Source: Ruminococcus sp. Phil11
GTDB taxonomy: Bacteria; Bacillota; Clostridia; Oscillospirales; Ruminococcaceae
DNA length: 64,000 nt
Assembly: GCA_001940925.1 (NCBI GenBank)
Contig: MSGZ01000027.1
Span: 1 to 64,000 of the forward strand
Reading direction: 5' to 3'
The position numbers were made by a program, and so were the translations under genes. The notes below the pieces were generated by a model. The model was not told the origin of the DNA and did no database searches. It saw only the letters and a list, made by a program, of their open reading frames with translations. Positions 30,219 to 40,144 of this stretch are shown piece by piece (within the stretch, counting starts at the first letter, position 1; every line of letters begins with the position of its first letter).

Positions 30219-30247
30219 TTGCAAAGCGGCCGCTTTTGTGGTATAAT
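30219..30247 (+). promoter_or_regulatory. Promoter of the TerB-ATPase operon
   Basis: TTGCAA (30219-30224), 17 bp, TATAAT (30242-30247), about 38 bases before the chosen start at 30286. Confidence 0.8.
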
Positions 30248-30285
30248 GAATATGTATATTATGCCGAGGGGAGATGTTCTGCGAA

Positions 30286-31914
30286 ATGAGTATGCTCAGT
30301 ATGCTGAAGCGGCTGTTCCGCGCCGCGGAGGAGGCCTATCAGGACGAGCAGCTGCCGAAGCCGAAAAAGCCGGCTGCAAAGAAGCCTGCTGCAAAGAAGC
30401 CTGCGTCTGCGGCAAAAAAGCCGGCAGCGAAGAAACCGGCATCGGCAGCGAAAAAGCCGTCATCGGCGAGAAGAAAACCCGGCACGGCATCCCATTCCGC
30501 GCAGATCTACGGCGAGCAGTCGATCTTTGCGAATCCGTCGGCCATGTTCTATCCGGTGCCGCAGCAGATCCGCCAGATGCGGACGCTCTCCGGCTACAAC
30601 AATCTCGACGGCAAGCGTTCCATGGAAAGCCTCTTTTATCAGCAGGGCAAATACATGGAGAATTTCACCGACGATTTCCCGGATACGGTACAGTGCGGAC
30701 GCTCCGTGCCGATGTACTATAACCTCAAGGACAATGAGCTGCGCGCATACTTCACATGGCGCACGCGCTACCGCATGGGTGCGATGCCGCCTGCACAGAA
30801 TGCATTTCTGCTGCTGTATGCCTATGAGATCCTGAACCTGATCGGGTTTCAGAGCGCGGAGCTTGCATACGATGCGCTCAGTCAGCTGCTGCGGGATTAC
30901 GGGGAGCAGTTCCCGTCCGTGAAGAAGTCGCTGCTGCGCTGGATCCCGGATTTTGCGGCGTATTATCAGCAGCCGTACCGTCTGGAGGACGAAAAGGAGG
31001 CGGCAGCGATCACGGTGCTGCGCCACAGTGCGCAGACAGCGAAGGACCTGCTGCTCGCGCTGGACACGCTCTCCAAATATCACATCAAAAATTCCAAGCT
31101 CTATCTTGCGGAGCCGGAGCAGGTCTCAGAGATCGTCAAGGCGGTCTACAAGGCGTTGCTGACCTATTACGCGGAGAAAAAGGAGAAGTCCTTTTCTGCG
31201 TATCTGCTCGGCGAGCAGCAGCGCAGCGAGCATCTGATGTTCGAGGGCGCGGTCTTTTATCAGCGGACGCTTGTGCCGAACGGCGATTACCGGCTGTCCC
31301 CGCTCTGCGTGTATCACTGCTATCAGGGACGCTGGGCGAAGGAGACCTTTGCGGGCAGTCCGAATGCCGCGCGCATCGGGGAGCTGCTGCGGACGATCGA
31401 CTCCATGCTGCGGGAGCAGCTCGGGTTCAAGGGCAAGCTGAAGGCAGGCGAGCTGCCGGAGGGCGATGCCGAAGTGATCCGGAAAGCGATCGCGGATTAT
31501 TTCGAGGAGCAGAAGCGCAAGAATGTGCCGGTCATCACGCTGAACGAGGAAGAACTGGAAAAGATCCGGCAGGCGGCGGAGCATACGACCGATATGCTGA
31601 CGCTGCCGGAGGATGAGCAGTCCGAAGCCGCCGTACCCGCGCCGGAGGAGCCGGCAGAGGATGACGACGATGACGGCGAACTGCCCGATCTGCCGCTGAG
31701 CGCACCGGCCATGGCATTGCTGATCTGTCTGGTGACAGGCGAATCCTATCAGCCGCTTGTCGATGCGGGACAGATGCTCTCGGTGCTGGCGGATGAGATC
31801 AACGAAAACCTGTATGATACCTTCGGTGATACGGTCATCGAAATGGAGGATGACAATACCCCGGTTCTGATCGAGGACTATGCGGAAGACCTGAAAGGAA
31901 TGCTGGAAACATGA
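30286..31914 (+). CDS. TerB_N/TerB_C protein with histone H1-like Lys/Ala/Pro tail
   Basis: Two starts are possible, 30274 and 30286; the second is better spaced from GAGGGGAG. The 542 residues begin with an amphipathic segment, then a repeated AAKKPA/KKPASAAKK tract (about 24-65) like the C-terminal tail of histone H1 and bacterial histone-like proteins, which bind nucleic acid by charge. A TerB_N domain (about 70-230) has SIFANPSAMFYPVPQQIRQM, GRSVPMYYNL and YFTWRTRYR. A middle helical region and a TerB_C-type end (ALLICLVTGESYQPLVDAG, LYDTFGDTVIEMEDDNTPVLIEDY) follow. TerB_N/TerB_C proteins are found beside an ATPase and an Lhr-like helicase in many bacteria and were proposed to act in stress or phage defence. 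The next gene overlaps by 4 bp. Confidence 0.85.
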   Translation: MSMLSMLKRLFRAAEEAYQDEQLPKPKKPAAKKPAAKKPASAAKKPAAKKPASAAKKPSSARRKPGTASHSAQIYGEQSIFANPSAMFYPVPQQIRQMRTLSGYNNLDGKRSMESLFYQQGKYMENFTDDFPDTVQCGRSVPMYYNLKDNELRAYFTWRTRYRMGAMPPAQNAFLLLYAYEILNLIGFQSAELAYDALSQLLRDYGEQFPSVKKSLLRWIPDFAAYYQQPYRLEDEKEAAAITVLRHSAQTAKDLLLALDTLSKYHIKNSKLYLAEPEQVSEIVKAVYKALLTYYAEKKEKSFSAYLLGEQQRSEHLMFEGAVFYQRTLVPNGDYRLSPLCVYHCYQGRWAKETFAGSPNAARIGELLRTIDSMLREQLGFKGKLKAGELPEGDAEVIRKAIADYFEEQKRKNVPVITLNEEELEKIRQAAEHTTDMLTLPEDEQSEAAVPAPEEPAEDDDDDGELPDLPLSAPAMALLICLVTGESYQPLVDAGQMLSVLADEINENLYDTFGDTVIEMEDDNTPVLIEDYAEDLKGMLET

Positions 31915-33230
31915 ATATTCCGAAACGAATGGCGGGCGCGGTGATCCACGCGCTGCAGGGCGGCGTCGTGCCGCGCATCGGTCTGCAGTATATTGCAGTC
32001 GGCAGAGAGCGTGAGATCGAAGCACTGCTGCACGATATTGAAGTCATGGCGGACGGCGGCGCGTCGTTCCGGTTCATCAGCGGCAAATACGGCAGCGGCA
32101 AGAGCTTTCTGCTGCAGACCGTGCGCAACTACGCAATGGACAGAGGCTTTGCGGTCTGTGACGCAGACCTTTCCCCGGAGCGCAGATTACAGGGCGCGAA
32201 CGGGCAGGGACTCGGCACCTACAAGGAGCTGATGCAGAATCTCTCGACCAAATCAAAGCCCGACGGCGGCGCACTTTCGCTGATTCTTGACCGCTGGATC
32301 AACGGCATCCGCATGGATGTCGCGGCAAAGAGCGGTCTGGAGCTGACCGACCCGCAGTTCCACAAGCTGGTCGAGCAGCAGATCTATACCGTTGTCGATT
32401 CGCTGAGTTCATTGGTGCACGGCTTTGATTTCGCGACGCTGCTGCGGATATACTATCAGTCCTTTGTCAATGACGATGCGGAGACCAAGGCGAAGGTCGT
32501 CAAATGGTTCCGCGGTGAATATCAGACCAAGACTGAGGCGAAAAACGAGCTCGGCGTGAGCATCTGCATCCGCGATGACGACTGGTACGAATATATCAAG
32601 CTGTTCGCGATGTTCCTGAAACAGGCGGGCTATCAGGGACTGATCGTGCTCGTGGACGAGCTCGTCAACCTGTACAAGATCCCGCAGAGCATTTCCCGCG
32701 AGAAGAATTACGAGAAGATCCTGACGATGTACAATGACACGATGCAGGGCAAGGCGCAGTATCTCGGCATTGTGATGTGCGGCACGCCCCAGTGCATGGA
32801 GGATCCGCGGCGCGGCATTTACAGCTACGAGGCGCTGAAATCGCGGCTTGTGGACGGAAAATACTGCGACGGGCAGAACAATCTCCATGCGCCGATCATC
32901 CGTCTGGAACCGCTCAGTTATGCGGAAATGCGCATTCTCGTCGAGAAGCTGGCGGAGATCCATGCGGTGCTCTATGACTATCAGCAGATCGTCACGGCGG
33001 CGGATATGGACGCCTTCATCAAGATCGAATACGGCCGCATCGGCGCGGACAGCAACCTGACGCCGCGCGAGGTCATCCGCGACTTTATCGAGGTGCTCGA
33101 TATCCTGCAGCAGCATCCCGGCAGCACGGTCGCCGGACTGCTCGGCGGAGAAGCCGGCTTTACCTATACCCCGACGGCACTGGAGGAACAGGAGCCGGTC
33201 GAGGACGAATACGCGGAATTTACCGTGTAA
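31911..33230 (+). CDS. P-loop ATPase, DUF2791/BrxC-BrxD-like
   Basis: The ATG at 31911 overlaps the TerB stop (ATGA), so the two proteins are probably made in equal amounts. The 439 residues have Walker A GKYGSGKS (58-65), Walker B LIVLVDELVNL (about 242-252), and the fingerprint IPKRMAGAVIHALQGGVVPRIG at the N-terminus and LTPREVIRDFIEVLDIL near the C-terminus that marks the DUF2791 family. Related ATPases are BrxD of BREX type 2 and similar AAA+ proteins in defence islands. It is expected to use ATP to remodel or load onto DNA. In related genomes an Lhr-like helicase usually comes next; here it is 4.6 kb away. Confidence 0.9.
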   Translation: MNIPKRMAGAVIHALQGGVVPRIGLQYIAVGREREIEALLHDIEVMADGGASFRFISGKYGSGKSFLLQTVRNYAMDRGFAVCDADLSPERRLQGANGQGLGTYKELMQNLSTKSKPDGGALSLILDRWINGIRMDVAAKSGLELTDPQFHKLVEQQIYTVVDSLSSLVHGFDFATLLRIYYQSFVNDDAETKAKVVKWFRGEYQTKTEAKNELGVSICIRDDDWYEYIKLFAMFLKQAGYQGLIVLVDELVNLYKIPQSISREKNYEKILTMYNDTMQGKAQYLGIVMCGTPQCMEDPRRGIYSYEALKSRLVDGKYCDGQNNLHAPIIRLEPLSYAEMRILVEKLAEIHAVLYDYQQIVTAADMDAFIKIEYGRIGADSNLTPREVIRDFIEVLDILQQHPGSTVAGLLGGEAGFTYTPTALEEQEPVEDEYAEFTV

Positions 33231-33292
33231 ATCAGCAGAAACCGCGGGCAACCGCGTTTCTATACAGTATTCCAAAAGGAGAGAGTTTTTAC

Positions 33293-34150
33293 ATGAAACT
33301 GAAGAAAACTGCGATCTGTACGGCGGCCATGGTGCTGCTGACGGGACTGTGCGGCTGCGGCGATACGCGTCCCGCTTTTACAGATGCACAGCTGCAGGCG
33401 ATCAGCGAGGCAAAGGTCGGCGAGGATTCGTTTATCATCACGCTGTATCCGGACGTTGCACCGATCACCTGCAAGAACTTTGAGAAGCTCGTGAATGAGG
33501 GATTTTACAACGGGCTGACCTTCCACCGCGTCATGATCGACTTTATGGCACAGGGCGGCGACCCTGAAGGCACCGGCATGGGCGGCAGTGAGGAAACGAT
33601 CAAGGGCGAGTTCAGCAGCAACGGCGTCCAGAATAATCTGTCGCATCAGCGCGGCGTCGTTTCCATGGCACGCAGCGCCGATCCGAACAGCGCATCGAGC
33701 CAGTTCTTTATCTGCTACGGTGACGAATCCTTCTTGGACGGCAATTATGCCGCATTCGGTGAGGTCACGGAGGGCATGGAGGTCGTGGACAGCTTCCTGA
33801 AGGTTCCTGTCACGATGAGCATGGGCGGTGAGGCTTCCTCGCCGACGGAGCCGATCGTCATGGAGATCGTCTGGCAGATCGAGGACGATGCCGAGGGTCA
33901 TCCGCGCATCGAGGTCAAGATGATGCCGATTCCGGTCGCGGAGGAAGAAGCGGAAGAAACTTCTGCCGTGGAAGAATCCGTTGCTGAGGAGGAGCCCGTC
34001 GCTGAGACAGAACCCGCAGCCGAGGAAGAATCCGAAGCCGGGGAGGAAACTGAGACGGAGGAATCGTCCGATGCGGCGGAAGTGACCGATGCACCGGAGG
34101 AAGCCGACGTACCGGAGGAGACCACGACGACAGAGGAAACGGCGGAATAA
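33293..34150 (+). CDS. Cyclophilin-type peptidyl-prolyl isomerase lipoprotein
   Basis: The ATG at 33293 follows AAAAGGAGAGAG. The 285 residues have a lipoprotein signal with Cys at about 20 or 22 (LTGLCGCGD), a cyclophilin domain (about 45-205: FYNGLTFHRVMIDFMAQGGDP, catalytic FHRV, GVVSMARS, ASSQFFICYG) and a C-terminal tail made almost only of Glu, Ala, Thr and Val (about 220-285). The domain is complete. It should fold proteins outside the membrane; the acidic tail may extend through the cell wall. It starts 63 bp after the ATPase stop. Confidence 0.9.
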   Translation: MKLKKTAICTAAMVLLTGLCGCGDTRPAFTDAQLQAISEAKVGEDSFIITLYPDVAPITCKNFEKLVNEGFYNGLTFHRVMIDFMAQGGDPEGTGMGGSEETIKGEFSSNGVQNNLSHQRGVVSMARSADPNSASSQFFICYGDESFLDGNYAAFGEVTEGMEVVDSFLKVPVTMSMGGEASSPTEPIVMEIVWQIEDDAEGHPRIEVKMMPIPVAEEEAEETSAVEESVAEEEPVAETEPAAEEESEAGEETETEESSDAAEVTDAPEEADVPEETTTTEETAE

Positions 34151-34256
34151 GCCGGCGCAAAGGGACATCCTGCACAGAAACAGTACAAGACGAAACACGC
34201 GGCAGGAATCCGGTATCAGATTCTTGCCGCGTGTTTGCCGTATTTCCGGCGTGATA

Positions 34257-34469
34257 CTATGTTTCGTCCTCGGTAAATTCGAGGATATCTCCCGGCTGAC
34301 AGTGCAGTGCCGTGCAGATCGCGTTCAGCGTGGAAAAGCGGATCGCACTGACCTTTCCGGTTTTCAGCTTGGAGAGATTGACATTGCTGACGCCGACCTT
34401 TTCGCTTAATTCGTTGAGGCTCATTTTCCGGTCTGCCATGACGCGGTCGAGCCGTAAAATAATTGCCAT
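34257..34469 (-). CDS. Cro/C1-type (YozG-like) transcription regulator
   Basis: The start at 34469 has GAGGTG 2-9 bases upstream; total 70 residues. It is a single HTH domain: LRLDRVMADRKMSLNELSEKVGVSNVNLSKLKTGK, then IRFSTLNAICTALHCQPGDIL. This is the short form found next to DUF2975 membrane proteins in many Firmicutes. It is the last gene of a reverse-strand cassette that starts with two DUF2975 genes. It most likely represses that cassette, and perhaps the divergent hydrolase, through the inverted repeats at 36681-36777. Confidence 0.85.
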   Translation of the reverse strand: MAIILRLDRVMADRKMSLNELSEKVGVSNVNLSKLKTGKVSAIRFSTLNAICTALHCQPGDILEFTEDET

Positions 34470-34477
34470 ATCGCACC

Positions 34478-35520
34478 TCACTGTATCTCATCGAGAAATT
34501 TGCGAATCTCCGCGCTGACTGCATCAGGGGCTTCCACATGGATATAATGCCCGCAGTTAAGCTGAACCAGTCTGCCGGTTGTCAGTGCTGCGTTATAGTT
34601 TTCATGGAGCTGCCGCCATTTCTGCAGGCCGTTTTCCCCGAGCATCAGCGAAAAGGTCGCTTCATCAGAGGAAAGCAGCTGCAGGGTCGGCACATCCGGC
34701 ACGGGACTGCCGCGGACGGCCTGAAAATCACTGCGCTGTGCTTCGGTCAGGATGCCTTCCCGGAACATCGCGGTCTGATAAAACCGGCTGTACCAGAGAT
34801 AGGTGATCGCCCTGTATTCCGCGCGCTCGGCTTCCGTCAGATCGGGGCTTGCCGCAGCCGGGAACACCTTGTTGGTATTGTAAAGCCGGTAACCGCCCAT
34901 GTCATAGAGCCAGAAGTGCAGAAATTCGTTTTCCTGCAGTGCCTGTTCAAGGGTCTGCGTCTGTACATTGTTCAGGTCGCCGATCTGTATATCGAACTGC
35001 TCCGGCACTGCCATGTCCAGCCCGACGATCGCTTCGACCTCGTCCGGATAAAGCTGCGCCCAGCGGACGGCTTCCAGTCCGGAAGCGGAATGCGGGCAAA
35101 GGACATCGGCGCGGAAAGCCCGGCCTTTTCCAGTGCTTCGCGGTCCTGCCTGAGCAGTGTCCCGAGATTCCGTTCGCCGTCAGCGTCGTCGCTGCAGCCG
35201 TAGCCGAATTTCTCGATCACCGCGATCCGGTACGTGTCCGAAAGCCTGCTGAACAGCGGCTTGAAATCGAAGATCACGGCGGGCGTATTCGCACCGGCCA
35301 TGAACACGAGCGTTTTGTCTCCGCTGCCCGCGGTATAAAGGTTCATGTTCCTGCCGCCGATCTCAATATACTGCCCCTGATGCCGGATCAGTGCGGATTC
35401 TTTTTTCAGCTGATGCCGGTTATAGCCGTACAGCCCCGCAGCGAATGCGGCGCAGAGCAGCAGCGGAATCAGCAGGATCGCTGCAAGGATGTTCAGCGGA
35501 CGGTGTTTGCGTTTTGTCAT
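34478..35520 (-). pseudogene. Alpha/beta hydrolase, broken by a 1-bp frameshift
   Basis: The reading frame is split at about 35105. The 5' part (35520 to about 35107) has a membrane anchor and the hydrolase start (GKTLVFMAGANT-like region, IEKFGYGCSDDADGERNLG). The 3' part resumes in another frame with CPHSASGLEAVRWAQLYPDEVEAIVGLDMAVPE and runs to the normal end with LNCGHYIHVEAPD. Comparison with the intact paralogue at 36844 shows one missing base (T) after the codons for SAP, before VLCPHS. The sequence of the nucleophile region is otherwise intact. It is either a recent mutation or a read error. With repair it would have about 347 residues. Confidence 0.85.
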
Positions 35521-35540
35521 CGGTATGCTTTTCGGAGCTG

Positions 35541-36023
35541 TCAGAGCGTTTCATCGGATTCCTGCTGCAGCATCGCGCCGTACCGGATGATATGCGCGAT
35601 GAACAGGAACAGCAGACCTTCGATCAGTGCGGACGGGTTGACAATTCCGCCGACGCCGTTTGCAGAGCCGATGATGCATGCCGCGGTGACCGAAGGAATC
35701 ACGGCATTGACCAGAAACAGAATGCCGATAATGCGCACGGTGCGGACATTCTTCGCGGTGAACGGAATGCCGTCCCTGGAGATGCGGAAGAACATCAAAG
35801 CGGCCGCGGCCATGATCGCCGCACCGAGCACGCCGGATATCATCACCCGGCAGATCGTGTACCGCTGAATCAGATCGGTTTCGTTCGGTGCAGCATTATA
35901 CAGGCGCAGCGCGGAAATCCCCAGCGTGAGCAGTGCTGCAATGCAGCAGATAACTGCAATGCCGAGGCTGCCTTCTTTGAGTTTTTCCATGATTTCAGGT
36001 TTGGAATGGATTTGTTCTTTCAT
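35541..36023 (-). CDS. DUF2975 membrane protein (second copy)
   Basis: The start at 36023 has AAAGGAG 8 bases upstream. About 160 residues with four TM helices (IAVICCIAALLTLGISALRLY, VLGAAIMAAAALMFF, RIIGILFLVNAVIPSVTAACI, ALIEGLLFLFIAHIIR). DUF2975 proteins have no proven role and often come with a YozG-like regulator. The last 14 residues, RYGAMLQQESDETL, are the same as in the next DUF2975 gene upstream, while the bodies have diverged. It is 13 bp from that gene. Confidence 0.8.
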   Translation of the reverse strand: MKEQIHSKPEIMEKLKEGSLGIAVICCIAALLTLGISALRLYNAAPNETDLIQRYTICRVMISGVLGAAIMAAAALMFFRISRDGIPFTAKNVRTVRIIGILFLVNAVIPSVTAACIIGSANGVGGIVNPSALIEGLLFLFIAHIIRYGAMLQQESDETL

Positions 36024-36036
36024 CAGGAAACTCCTT

Positions 36037-36585
36037 TCACAGTGTTTCGTCGGATTCCTGCTGGAGCATTGCACCGTAGCGGAATGCTTTTGCGAGGAAG
36101 AGCAGCAGAATGCAGAATCCGACTGCCGGATACGACAGCGTGCGGTGTTCAAACACATCAAGAAAAACGGACGGATTTGAAATGCCTTCGTAGCGCAGAA
36201 GCCTGAAAAAATAGATCAGCGCGGGAACTGCTGCACGGAGCCCCAGCAAAATGCCTGCCGCTTTGAGGAATTTGGCATTTCGCTCCGTGAAAGGCTGACC
36301 GTCCTTTCTGAGGCTTCTGAACAGCAGGATCAGCGGGATCAGTGTGGCTGCCGTAAGCATGAACTTCACGATCATCTCCGGAAGCTCAGCGTAGGCAAGA
36401 GCGGACATATAGCTTGTGATCGTGCCGTTAAATGTATGCGGCTGCGAGAGCGTGTACACCAGCTTGTATGCAGTGCTGAGAAGCTGCACTGCGAGGAACA
36501 GCACCGTCAGGATCAGTGCCGGCTTTGCAAGACGGCGGATATGTTCGGTGTTTTTCTGCTTGACAGAATCATGATTGTTTTCCAT
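36037..36585 (-). CDS. DUF2975 membrane protein (first copy)
   Basis: The start at 36585 follows AAGGAGGTTT. The 182 residues have four TM helices (ALILTVLFLAVQLLSTAYKLVY, MIVKFMLTAATLIPLILLF, FLKAAGILLGLRAAVPALIYFF, PAVGFCILLLFLAKAFR). The loop GQPFTERNAK matches GIPFTAKNVR of the other copy and is typical of DUF2975. First gene of the reverse-strand cassette, divergent from the hydrolase at 36844. Confidence 0.8.
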   Translation of the reverse strand: MENNHDSVKQKNTEHIRRLAKPALILTVLFLAVQLLSTAYKLVYTLSQPHTFNGTITSYMSALAYAELPEMIVKFMLTAATLIPLILLFRSLRKDGQPFTERNAKFLKAAGILLGLRAAVPALIYFFRLLRYEGISNPSVFLDVFEHRTLSYPAVGFCILLLFLAKAFRYGAMLQQESDETL

Positions 36586-36680
36586 AGTAAACCTCCTTGT
36601 GTGCTTCCTGATGTCCGGAGCCCTGTTGCTCCGTTGGCTGTATCATAACACATAGTTTTATGTTTGTCAACTACTTTTTA

Positions 36681-36777
36681 ATGATAAACGATAAAAATTA
36701 GATGCTTGCACAATCCGGCATGACGGATACGCAAGCCCCGTTATGCATTTTAACGATAAAAAATTATCGTTTATCAT
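36681..36777. promoter_or_regulatory. Inverted-repeat operator in the divergent control region
   Basis: ATGATAAACGATAA (36681-36694) has a perfect inverted copy TTATCGTTTATCAT (36764-36777). The second copy overlaps a palindrome, AACGATAAAAAATTATCGTT (36752-36771). The region is AT-rich and lies between the DUF2975 cassette (left) and the hydrolase (right). A dimeric repressor such as the Cro/C1-type protein at 34257 could bind both sites and loop the DNA. Confidence 0.7.
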
Positions 36778-36843
36778 AAAACTCTTTAGAAAATGTGTCG
36801 CTGAGATCAATCGGAATTTGTTAAGCGAAAGGCGCAGGGTCGT

Positions 36844-37797
36844 ATGAAAAAAGCATTCAGAATAATCGGAAAAGTATTCCTCGGACTGCTGATCCTGATC
36901 GTGTTATTCCTTGTAGTTATGACGGTATACAATCAGATCATGCTCAAAAAGAATAAAGCCCTCTGCGAAACGCCGCTTGGACAGCTTGTGGAGGTAGACG
37001 GTCACAATATGAGCATCTACACGGAAGGTGAGGGAGAACACACGATCGTGTTCCTGTCGGGTCACGGAACAGCCTCTCCGATCCTGGATTTCAAACCGCT
37101 TTACAGCAGGCTTTCCGATGATTATAAAATCGTCGTTGTGGAAAAGTTCGGCTACGGCTTCAGCGATCTGGTTGACGGCGAACGGGATCTTGACACGATC
37201 CTCCGTCAGGACAGGGAGGCACTCGAAAAGTGCGGAATCGAAGCACCGTATGTGCTGTGCCCGCATTCATTTTCAGGCTATGAGGCAACCCGCTGGGCGC
37301 AGGAGTACCCTGATGAGGTTGAAGCAATCGTTGGTTTGGATATGTGTACGCCGCACTGTATGGACGTCAATAAACTGAAAGAAAAATATTCAAGCTCCGC
37401 GTTCCTGTGGGGAATTGCAAGGTTTATGAAAGCCGTCGGAATTGTCCGACTGTTTGACTACAACGAATCAGGCGTGCTCTCAGAGGAAGACTGCGCAATC
37501 TATAAAGAGATTGCCTGTCATAAAAACGTGAATGATACTATGCAGAATGAGGGTGATGTTGAAATCGCCCTGAATGATGAACGCAATTCCGCACCTCTGC
37601 CGACAGTTCCCGTGCTGCTGTACGTTTCCAACGAAACCTCAAATGATGAATACCGGATAGGCGGGATGCAGGCGATGGTCGATGCTTCCTCAGACGGCAC
37701 GCTGATCCAGCTTGACTGCGGGCATTATGTGCATTACTATGCGTATGAAAGAATCAGTCAGGATATGAAAGCGTTTATTGAAAAGCCGGATCGCTGA
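36844..37797 (+). CDS. Membrane-anchored alpha/beta hydrolase
   Basis: The ATG at 36844 follows GAAAGGCGCAGGG. The 317 residues have one N-terminal TM (about 8-28) and an alpha/beta hydrolase domain: TIVFLSGHGTASPILDFKPLY, VEKFGYGFSD, nucleophile region CPHSFSGYEATRW (about residue 140) in which GxSxG is replaced by PHSFS, the acid in the LGLDM-like strand and the His in DCGHYVHYYAYE. Its closest relative in the window is the frameshifted gene at 34478. The substrate is unknown. It is 67 bp upstream of the helicase gene. Confidence 0.85.
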   Translation: MKKAFRIIGKVFLGLLILIVLFLVVMTVYNQIMLKKNKALCETPLGQLVEVDGHNMSIYTEGEGEHTIVFLSGHGTASPILDFKPLYSRLSDDYKIVVVEKFGYGFSDLVDGERDLDTILRQDREALEKCGIEAPYVLCPHSFSGYEATRWAQEYPDEVEAIVGLDMCTPHCMDVNKLKEKYSSSAFLWGIARFMKAVGIVRLFDYNESGVLSEEDCAIYKEIACHKNVNDTMQNEGDVEIALNDERNSAPLPTVPVLLYVSNETSNDEYRIGGMQAMVDASSDGTLIQLDCGHYVHYYAYERISQDMKAFIEKPDR

Positions 37798-37864
37798 ATG
37801 ATTTACAGCAGGAGCACTTTTCTTAAATGATCGTATCATAAAAAGAACGGAGGCGTTGTACAGC

Positions 37865-40144
37865 ATGGATGCTTTTTCACGCTATGCGCCCTTTATACAG
37901 GAATACATTTTCCGCGCGGGCTGGGAGAAGCTCCGTGCGGTGCAGGTCGCAGCCGCGGACGCGATCTTCAATTCGGAGGACAATGTGCTGATCTCCGCGT
38001 CCACGGCGTCCGGCAAGACCGAAGCGGCGTTCTTTCCGGTGCTGACGCTGCTGGAGGAGGATCCGCCCGCATCGGTCGGCGCGATCTACATTGCACCGCT
38101 GAAAGCACTCATCAATGACCAGTTCACGCGCATGACCGATCTCTGCGAACCTGCGGGAATCAGGGTCTGGCGGTGGCACGGGGATGTCGGGCAGTCACAG
38201 AAGGCGAAACTGCTGAAGCATCCGTCCGGCATTCTGCAAATTACACCGGAATCGCTGGAAGCCCTGATGCTGCATAAGCACGCAATGATTCCCGCGCTGT
38301 TCCGCGATCTGCGTTTTGTCATTATCGACGAGGTGCACTCGCTGCTGCGCGGCGACCGCGGCGGTCAGACGCTCTGCCTGATCGAGCGGCTTTCCGATCT
38401 CTCCGGTGCAAGGCCGCGCAGAATCGGGCTTTCCGCGACGATCGGCGACATTGAGCAGACAGCCGTCTATCTCGGCACCGGTTCGGGACGGAACACCGTG
38501 ATTCCGCAGATCGCGCCGCAGAAAAGTACATGGCGGCTTTCCATGGAGCATTTTTATGCGCTGGATTCGCAGGCCGCGGAGGGTAAGGAGGTCGATGCGC
38601 CGGAGCCGCTGGAACGGGAGACCGATCCGGCACCGCCTGCGGCTGACCCCGCTTACGGCTACATCTTTTCGCACACGCGGGGGAAGAAATGTCTGGTGTT
38701 CGTCAATTCCCGCGAGGAATGCGAGGCCGTGACGACTTCGCTGCGGCAGTACTGCGAAAGCAAGAACGAGCCGGACAGATTCCTGATTCACCACGGCAAT
38801 CTTTCTGCCGCTTACAGAGAAACAGCGGAGGCAGTCATGAAGGATGAGGAGCAGACCATGACGACCGTCACGACTGCGACGCTGGAGCTCGGCATCGACA
38901 TCGGCAAGCTGGAACGCGCGTTTCAGCTCGATGCGCCGTTCACGGTATCCTCATTCCTGCAGCGCATGGGACGCACCGGGCGCAGGGGACTCCCGCCCGA
39001 GATGTGGTTCGTTATGCGGGAGGAGGAGCCGGAGGCGCGTGCGATGCTGCCTTCCACGGTCCCGTGGAAGCTGCTGCAGGGCATCGCGCTGGTACAGCTT
39101 TATGCAGAGGAGCACTGGGTCGAGCCGCCGAAGCTGGACCGCCTGCCGTTCAGTCTGCTGTACCACCAGACCATGAGCACACTGGCGGCCAACGGCGAGA
39201 TGACCCCCGCACAGCTTGCGGGGCGCGTCCTGAAGCTGCAGCCGTTCGGCCGGATCACGCAGGATGACTACCGCATTCTGCTGCGGCACCTGATTGACAA
39301 GGATCATATTCAGCGCACCGAACGCGGCGGCCTGATCGCCGGTTTAGCGGGGGAGCGCGTCATCAACAATTACAAGTTCTACGCGGTTTTTCAGGACAGC
39401 GAGGAGTTCACCGTGCGGTCGGAATCACAGGAGATCGGCACGATCGTTCAGCCGCCGCCCGCCGGGGAAAAAATCGCGATCGCGGGTCATGTGTGGGTCG
39501 TGGATGAGGTCGATTACGACCGGCATCTGGTCTACTGCACGCAGGTCAAGGGCAAGGTCCCGGCGTATTTCGGCGACTGCCCCGGCGATATCCAGACGAA
39601 GATCCTGGAACGGATGCGCGGCGTTCTGCAGGAGGATCAGCAGTATCCCTATGTCATGAAGAACGCGGTCGCCCGGCTGGCACAGGCGAGAAATACCGCG
39701 GCGCATTCGGGACTTCTGACCGAGCCGCTGATCTGCATGGGCGGCGACATGTGGGCACTGTTCCCGTGGCTCGGCAGCTACGGCTTTCTGGCACTGGAAC
39801 GCCTGCTGAAGATCAAATGCGCGCAGGAGCTGCATTTATCGGGTCTTGCACCGTCAAGGCCGTATTTCATGACGTTCAAGATGAAGGCAGACAAGGAGAC
39901 CTTTTTCCGCGTTGTGCGGGAGCAGGCGGAGGCGGAATTTGATCCGCTGGAGCTCGTCTATCCGGACGAGATCCCGCTGTTTGAGAAATATGACGAGTAT
40001 GTTCCGGCAGAGCTGGTACGGAAAGGCTTTGCCTACGGCATCCTTGCGGTCGATGAGATGCGCGCGCGGGTGCGGAACTGGACAGGGAGCATTGAAGATA
40101 CAATTTGCGGGGATGGCAGCGGCGGGCTGCCGATGTACGGGTAA
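37865..40144 (+). CDS. Lhr-like DEAD/DEAH-box SF2 helicase
   Basis: The ATG at 37865 has GGAGG 11 bases upstream; a TTG at 37856 is less well placed. The 759 residues contain SF2 motifs: Q-like region LRAVQVAAADAIF, I ASTASGKTEAA, Ia APLKALINDQF, II DEVHSLLRG, III SATIGD, V TATLELGIDIG and VI QRMGRTGRRG, then an Lhr-type C-terminal region (EERVINNYKFYAVF-like, GHVWVVDEVDYDRHLVYCTQVKG). Relatives are BrxHI of BREX type 2 and the helicase that accompanies TerB_N/DUF2791 genes. It probably forms one system with 30286 and 31911, now separated by 4.6 kb of other genes. Confidence 0.9.
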   Translation: MDAFSRYAPFIQEYIFRAGWEKLRAVQVAAADAIFNSEDNVLISASTASGKTEAAFFPVLTLLEEDPPASVGAIYIAPLKALINDQFTRMTDLCEPAGIRVWRWHGDVGQSQKAKLLKHPSGILQITPESLEALMLHKHAMIPALFRDLRFVIIDEVHSLLRGDRGGQTLCLIERLSDLSGARPRRIGLSATIGDIEQTAVYLGTGSGRNTVIPQIAPQKSTWRLSMEHFYALDSQAAEGKEVDAPEPLERETDPAPPAADPAYGYIFSHTRGKKCLVFVNSREECEAVTTSLRQYCESKNEPDRFLIHHGNLSAAYRETAEAVMKDEEQTMTTVTTATLELGIDIGKLERAFQLDAPFTVSSFLQRMGRTGRRGLPPEMWFVMREEEPEARAMLPSTVPWKLLQGIALVQLYAEEHWVEPPKLDRLPFSLLYHQTMSTLAANGEMTPAQLAGRVLKLQPFGRITQDDYRILLRHLIDKDHIQRTERGGLIAGLAGERVINNYKFYAVFQDSEEFTVRSESQEIGTIVQPPPAGEKIAIAGHVWVVDEVDYDRHLVYCTQVKGKVPAYFGDCPGDIQTKILERMRGVLQEDQQYPYVMKNAVARLAQARNTAAHSGLLTEPLICMGGDMWALFPWLGSYGFLALERLLKIKCAQELHLSGLAPSRPYFMTFKMKADKETFFRVVREQAEAEFDPLELVYPDEIPLFEKYDEYVPAELVRKGFAYGILAVDEMRARVRNWTGSIEDTICGDGSGGLPMYG

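Follow-up and report, generated by a model that had tools for sequence, protein, structure and literature searches.

Gene content and identity of the locus

We analyzed a 64,000-nucleotide stretch of Ruminococcus sp. Phil11 (contig MSGZ01000027.1, positions 1 to 64,000; hereafter the window), in which three genes on one strand encode a protein with TerB_N and TerB_C domains, an AAA+ type ATPase of the BrxC_BrxD/DUF2791 family, and a superfamily 2 (SF2) Lhr-like helicase (Table 1). Judged by their matches to family models, these genes are sngA, sngB, and sngC of Shango, an already published anti-phage system. As the original prediction had stated, sngA and sngB overlap by 4 bp (ATGA; an alternative in-frame ATG start for sngA lies at 30274), and the helicase gene follows on the same strand, with 4634 bp from the sngB stop to the sngC start and reverse-strand genes in between. 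The A-B-C order and the single strand are retained; close adjacency, which is customary but which we do not take as a defining trait, is missing for sngC. Comparison with relatives indicates that this locus is a known system in a new arrangement, a vertically inherited, de-clustered Shango.

Against the PADLOC Shango models, the sngA product scored 199 bits (residues 77-544 on positions 41-527 of the 528-position model), the sngB product 602 bits vs 182 bits for BrxD, and the sngC product 906 bits vs 414 bits for BrxHI. Because all three proteins match Shango models, the trio is not a chance assembly. The kinship to BrxD-BrxHI of the BREX (bacteriophage exclusion) systems in the original prediction survives as a family relationship and not as membership, since SngB stops short of the NCBIfam BrxD equivalog (183.2 bits, cut-off of 350). 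SngC did not reach the equivalog PRK09751, which we take to be the Lhr model (100 of 1496 bits), or the ligase-associated TIGR04121 (192 of 850 bits), so that the helicase sides with SngC and not with the housekeeping Lhr proteins that the prediction had named as a possible grouping. We found no PglX methylase, PglZ, or BrxC domain in the nine scanned proteins of 30274-40144 and no BREX match in ten scanned window proteins (a subset of the window genes rather than the whole genome), which agrees with the predicted absence of BREX core genes.

Neither SngA nor SngB had a sequence match to any PDB chain. The predicted SngA model has a mean predicted local distance difference test score (pLDDT) of 83, with values below 50 at residues 26-83 (counted from 30274). 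The N-terminal lysine/alanine/proline repeat tail of SngA is encoded at 30349-30522. A basic low-complexity tail is present in 14 of the 16 SngA sequences of the genus that were displayed and is missing in genomes G020 and G024, the two in which the trio is contiguous.

In the portions of the literature covered, Shango is a three-gene TerB/ATPase/helicase system that, on transfer from P. aeruginosa PA14 into PAO1, restricts phages (PMC10250203), the Escherichia coli tests being those of Millman et al. 2022 as cited in the same source. We therefore rejected the idea of a new minimal defense system: the stand-alone set of the original prediction is real and linked, but it already bears the name Shango and has a published anti-phage test (PMC10250203). 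SngC has been grouped with BrxHI, DruE, and DpdJ in a potentially distinct clade of defense helicases (PMC12278908), defense systems recorded in rumen genomes already include Shango (PMC13356809), and BrxD-BrxHI is described as a tight dyad for which a loader role is suggested (PMC12839542); the Shango mechanism is not settled in the literature covered.

As far as these sources extend, the window copy resembles described Shango (PMC10250203) in its three family-model matches, its A-B-C order, and its sngA-sngB overlap. It differs in that sngC lies 4.6 kb away with its own predicted regulatory region, SngA has a basic tail, and the genes appear vertically inherited in the genus rather than carried in a defense hotspot. 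With BrxD-BrxHI of BREX type 2 (PMC12839542), it shares a related ATPase, an Lhr-like SF2 helicase, and likely a loader-helicase logic, but it has SngA, misses the BrxD cut-off, and shows no BREX core gene in the locus.

Distribution, spacing, and descent

SngB was present in 25 of 30 genomes of the window genus, in one of them as a fragment at a contig end, and the 25 include all 13 high-quality genomes. Strong SngC (best match of at least 550 bits) was present in 24 of 30. The five genomes without SngB also had no SngA and no SngC match above 68 bits, so Shango looks to be kept or lost as a whole; missing sequence may contribute to these absences, as the five genomes are 75-88% complete. In a sample of the family, SngB occurred in 18 of 148 genomes, a count that includes two members of the window genus and two weak matches.

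Within the genus, the spacing of sngB and sngC could be read in the 20 genomes with both on one sequence; it is 870-4851 bp in 18, and G020 and G024 are the contiguous pair. (The spacing table has 24 rows and does not hold G025; G013, G017, G019, and G028, with sngC not on the same sequence, are left out of this count, and G002, G003, G026, and G027, where sngA is not visible, out of the sngA-sngB count.) Outside the genus, the original prediction's check for linkage among relatives came out in favor of a linked trio: sngB and sngC are within 700 bp in 56 of the 59 loci where both are visible and more than 250 bp apart in 10. The largest gaps there, 4459 bp in L077, 1544 bp in L099, and 1113 bp in L105, contain unrelated genes. 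Separation of sngA from sngB by more than 250 bp was found in 1 of 59 loci outside the genus and 1 of 20 genomes within it. These outside counts omit L089, whose contig ends before sngC, and L115, where no sngA was seen. The scan of named genomes kept 80 of 231 loci, and L049-L067 and L070, most or all of which are named records that repeat genus loci in the count, were not recounted. The predicted split by an insert is therefore real but not peculiar to the window, since most of the genus has it.

Individual loci varied further. R. albus 8 and a relative (L114, L123; 11314-11805) have a P-loop kinase-like gene and L100 an ArsC/Spx-like gene between sngB and sngC, both named by eye. In G017, sngA and sngB are 1.3 kb apart and no sngC turned up within 10.5 kb downstream of sngB (L185/L196), a cyclophilin-sngC pair lying on another contig (L186). 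L033 (G009) has a tandem pair of cyclophilin genes in the sngB-sngC gap, and no subtilase match follows its sngC.

In an SngB tree built by a quick method and without L118, the genus forms one side of one branch (support of 93). Within it, the 22 split-lineage sequences group with a Shimodaira-Hasegawa-like approximate likelihood ratio test (SH-aLRT) value of 100, apart from G020 and G024; the position of G024 is unsure because of its long branch. Mantel correlations of rpoB with SngA, SngB, and SngC were 0.94, 0.92, and 0.93 (17, 20, and 16 genomes) and, without G020 and G024, 0.85, 0.84, and 0.86, with 0 of 2000 permutations as good in each case. One misfit is G007, which stands beside G000 in the rpoB tree and deeper in the SngB tree. 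The tree grouping and the rpoB-tracking distances together support a reading in which Shango was acquired once and then descended vertically, with a single old insertion between sngB and sngC whose content has since turned over. By these comparisons, the split is old and lineage-wide and not a fresh disruption.

The insert and the predicted control region before sngC

Between sngB and sngC, the window holds what the original prediction had listed, a cyclophilin lipoprotein gene, a reverse-strand DUF2975/hydrolase/regulator cassette, and a second hydrolase gene, here refined to two DUF2975 genes and a broken first hydrolase. Of the 18 split genomes of the genus, 17 have the cyclophilin gene at this junction; it was not found in G023. 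The helix-turn-helix (HTH) regulator gene, of the HTH_26 type that we take to be YozG-like, is 89-100% identical in 13 of the 18. G021 keeps a remnant of 31 residues, and none was found in G009, G010, G022, and G029. Each locus has 0 to 4 DUF2975 copies, which share 28-75% identity with those of the window; copy b of G015 is only 48% identical, though its Shango proteins are 98-99% identical. Among the compared loci, only the window and G015 have the second hydrolase gene between the operator region and sngC. The first hydrolase is apparently interrupted in G015 and G001 as well, and G005 has an uninterrupted 347-aa open reading frame (ORF).

This content, cyclophilin plus an HTH_26/DUF2975 cassette, looks regulatory or envelope-related rather than effector-like, and the suggestion that the insert adds effectors seems improbable. 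Like HTH_26/DUF2975 cassettes, that of the window has a small Cro/CI regulator beside DUF2975 membrane genes and operator-like repeats, but its divergent promoter region faces a defense helicase gene.

TABLE 1 Predicted features of the Shango locus and its immediate surroundings in the window
Feature	Position	Strand	Basis
Sigma70-like promoter before sngA, TTGCAA-17-TATAAT	30219..30247	+	10/12 consensus positions; consensus match only
sngA, TerB_N + TerB_C, K/A/P-rich N-terminal tail	30286..31914	+	Pfam TerB_C 64 bits, TerB_N 57 bits
sngB, AAA+ type ATPase (BrxC_BrxD/DUF2791)	31911..33230	+	Pfam 546 bits
Cyclophilin-type peptidyl-prolyl isomerase, lipoprotein signal by eye	33293..34150	+	Pfam Pro_isomerase 151 bits
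Strong hairpin 3' of cyclophilin gene	34193..34236	+	RNA fold -37.2 kcal/mol, z -6.3, 0/200 shuffles as good
HTH_26 (Cro/CI) regulator of cassette	34257..34469	-	Pfam 84 bits
First alpha/beta hydrolase gene, broken into two frames	34478..35520	-	Two ORFs, 182 and 178 aa
DUF2975 membrane protein, copy a	35541..36023	-	Pfam DUF2975 30.7 bits
DUF2975 membrane protein, copy b	36037..36585	-	Pfam DUF2975 28.9 bits
Promoter-like site of reverse cassette, TTGACA-17-TATGAT	36642..36670	-	11/12 consensus positions, TG before second hexamer
Operator-like site 1	36681..36694	+	At most 1 mismatch from query
Operator-like site 2, inverted; overlaps weak forward promoter match 36750-36777	36764..36777	-	
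Second alpha/beta hydrolase	36844..37797	+	Weak Pfam Abhydrolase_1 match, E 0.0039, under cut-off
sngC, SF2 Lhr-like helicase, DEAD + Helicase_C	37865..40144	+	
Giant subtilase with leucine-rich repeats and weak dockerin match, 2107 aa	40164..46487	+	Pfam

The region before the second hydrolase contains two inverted operator-like sites, ATGATAAACGATAA, which are the sole two in the 3.7-Mb genome that differ from the query by at most one mismatch. With at most 2 mismatches allowed, two or more copies of the core motif fall within the 400 bp preceding sngC (in G000 and G015, preceding the hydrolase gene) in 16 of 23 genomes. The paired sites are 78-86 bp apart in 15 of these 16, usually near -119 and -38; 13 genomes have them inverted, and G003 and G006 have both in one orientation. 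In G026, the two sites are distal and overlap, with the proximal site missing. The motif was found even once upstream of sngA in 0 of 14 genus genomes, upstream of the subtilase gene in 0 of 19, and upstream of the cyclophilin gene in 1 of 15. A 161-bp DNA query of the region matched 19 of 30 genus genomes, 16 of them directly upstream of sngC or the hydrolase gene, with G006, G017, and G022 giving weak matches elsewhere only. A short inverted repeat with five-base arms lies between the two sites (36713-36728), and 13 of the 16 genus sequences in the alignment retain both arms.

In G017, whose sngC has no cassette next to it, one site lies ~1.7 kb before the displaced DUF2975-HTH genes. This placement suggests that the predicted operator sites probably belong to the cassette's own regulator and that sngC came under them by position. 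Both sites persist in G021, with its HTH remnant, and in G029, which has no HTH gene, as expected if they lie in the promoter region of sngC. The hairpin after the cyclophilin gene may end the upstream sngA-sngB-cyclophilin transcript; it has no long T run and is absent from the list of our terminator scan. From this arrangement of predicted sites, the helicase gene is probably under separate control. Weighing against that reading, operator-like sites were not seen in five non-contiguous genomes (G009, G010, G017, G022, and G023).

The subtilase gene starts 19 bp past sngC in the window. Of 20 genus genomes, 19 have it after sngC despite differing upstream flanks, and it evolves fast.

Selection on the Shango genes

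Ratios of nonsynonymous to synonymous divergence (omega) were computed by the Nei-Gojobori method and omitted where synonymous divergence (dS) was saturated, several of the dS values used exceeding 1. In the genus, omega was 0.017-0.084 for SngB (9 pairs) and 0.026-0.106 for SngC (10 pairs), 0.047-0.321 for SngA (9 pairs), and 0.060-0.349 for the cyclophilin (8 pairs). The comparison genes lysA and rluA gave 0.100-0.109 and 0.139-0.190 (4 pairs each), and DUF2975 copy b and the subtilase gave 0.27-0.40 (7 pairs) and 0.18-0.44 (9 pairs). In a set that includes sequences cut at one end, all 21 genus SngC sequences have helicase motifs II, III, and VI and 20 of the 21 have motif I, and Walker A was found in 22 of 24 genus SngB sequences. 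These alignments show strong purifying selection on SngB and SngC, with helicase motifs intact. For contiguous Shango elsewhere, omega was 0.022-0.072 for SngB (8 pairs) and 0.020-0.053 for SngC (9 pairs). Since these ranges are alike, the split system appears to be selected about as strongly as the intact operon, and by this measure it is not more constrained.

Dispersal of Shango in a second genus

In genome G123 of the same family, sngA, sngB, and sngC are on three contigs. In its genus, g95 (43 genomes), we found SngA in 43, SngB in 37, and SngC in 39, with sngA and sngB on different contigs in all 37 genomes that have both. Both sngB and sngC are present in 34 g95 genomes; by match coordinates, they are within 700 bp in 17, 0.7-2.4 kb apart in 7, 30 kb apart in one (G212), and on different contigs in 9. 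In the three of these nine that were checked (G123, G180, and G216), the genes lie inside contigs and not at their ends.

The upstream neighbor of g95 sngA is abiD, encoding an AbiD (Abi_2) abortive infection protein, which lies on the same strand in 17 of 20 fetched genomes and close to sngA except in G183 (0.6 kb). Two g95 AbiD proteins tested against the AbiD model scored 311 and 314 bits. A profile trained on g95 AbiD proteins found none at the other fetched Shango loci, a search that could miss a divergent AbiD. Loci with the abiD-sngA pair include L207, L208, L211, L214, and L217, sngB and sngC lying elsewhere; in many genomes, gpsA/plsY-like genes adjoin the pair. A gpsA-like gene is in the fetched stretch of 15 of 20 g95 genomes (Pfam-checked in G123 only); in G123, sngA is beside plsY/gpsA, and sngB is beside genes named by eye as gltX and folD. 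Across g95, SngA and SngC distances agree even though the two are unlinked (r of 0.885, 19 genomes, 0 of 2000 permutations), and those of SngB and gpsA agree less (r of 0.45, 1 of 2000).

On a joint SngB tree of 102 rows, made by a quick method and with many weak forks, a minimum of 10 changes is required for the separation of sngB from sngC (more than 250 bp or dispersal; 95 rows scored) and 3 for that of sngA from sngB, rows with unknown sngA-sngB state being coded as linked. This difference points to a sngA-sngB unit and an independently tunable helicase.

Discussion

We consider it likely that Shango has been inherited vertically in the window genus, was split by an old insertion, and has its helicase set separately. 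In such a model, sngA, sngB, and the cyclophilin gene would form one transcript from a constitutive-looking promoter, ending at the hairpin, and sngC, here behind the second hydrolase gene, would be transcribed from a divergent region with two inverted sites for the HTH_26 repressor. A separate divergent promoter region would allow the amount of helicase to be set independently; its level may rise on repressor release, perhaps steered by the variable DUF2975 membrane proteins. By the role proposed for BrxD-BrxHI, SngB most likely loads or activates the SngC helicase on invading DNA. SngA, with its basic tail and a possibly winged-helix C-terminal end, may be a DNA or partner adaptor translationally coupled to SngB, and the cyclophilin, hydrolases, and subtilase would be neighbors and not effectors.

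A rather unlikely alternative is that in these genera the trio is mainly a cellular DNA-maintenance machine for repair or clearing of replication conflicts, with island-borne Shango as its mobilized version, or the reverse. Such a function would suit a trio that is present in most genus genomes and tracks rpoB, that is found dispersed in g95 (SngA in 43, SngB in 37, and SngC in 39 of 43 genomes), that in G123 has sngA beside plsY/gpsA and sngB beside the by-eye gltX/folD, and whose SngC distantly matches Lhr-type models. However, none of the trio was seen in five genus genomes (75-88% complete), which makes the set look dispensable. In addition, SngB has a patchy distribution across the family (18 of 148), g95 sngA is behind a gene of an abortive-infection family in 17 of 20 genomes, and P. 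aeruginosa Shango restricts phages (PMC10250203). We regard it as improbable that the insert proteins (the hydrolases, DUF2975 proteins, and cyclophilin) join Shango in an extended defense module. Their genes do fall within the locus, much of the genus has the cassette at this junction too, and the DUF2975 copies vary greatly, from 0 to 4 per locus, but only the cyclophilin was detected in G022 and G029 and nothing in G020 and G024, the first hydrolase is broken in the window, the second was matched by no PADLOC model, and unrelated genes fill the junction in L077, L099, L105, and R. albus 8.

The loss of coding linkage, the opposite-strand genes in between, and the one broken insert gene could also mean that the insertion broke Shango and that the window copy is decaying. 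This reading is already disfavored and very unlikely, given omega values for SngB (0.017-0.084) and SngC (0.026-0.106) within or below those of lysA (0.100-0.109), the presence of the helicase motifs, and a split held in common by a 22-sequence lineage. Harder still to credit is a remnant of BREX type 2 left after loss of the methylase, PglZ, and BrxC: SngB and SngC are related to BrxD and BrxHI, but the BrxD equivalog cut-off is missed (183 of 350 bits), the Shango models score two to three times higher, and SngA, coupled by the 4-bp overlap, is a Shango protein.

Extending the preferred reading of a vertically inherited, split Shango beyond the window genus, we tentatively propose that in two genera of one family the system is no longer an island-borne operon but, in most genomes, a de-clustered, vertically inherited chromosomal machine whose parts sit on different local circuits. 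In the window genus, an HTH_26/DUF2975 membrane-sensing cassette would gate the helicase; in the other, SngA would be coupled to AbiD, with the ATPase-helicase pair elsewhere. Shango might in that case be a sensor-loader-helicase complex of separately controlled parts, with a possible role in the cell besides its action on phages.

The naturally occurring splits offer a way into the mechanism of Shango, and the abiD-sngA pair in g95 names a candidate partner. Detection tools whose spacing rules require neighboring genes may miss split or dispersed Shango copies, so that Shango may be more widespread in gut Clostridia than current counts suggest.

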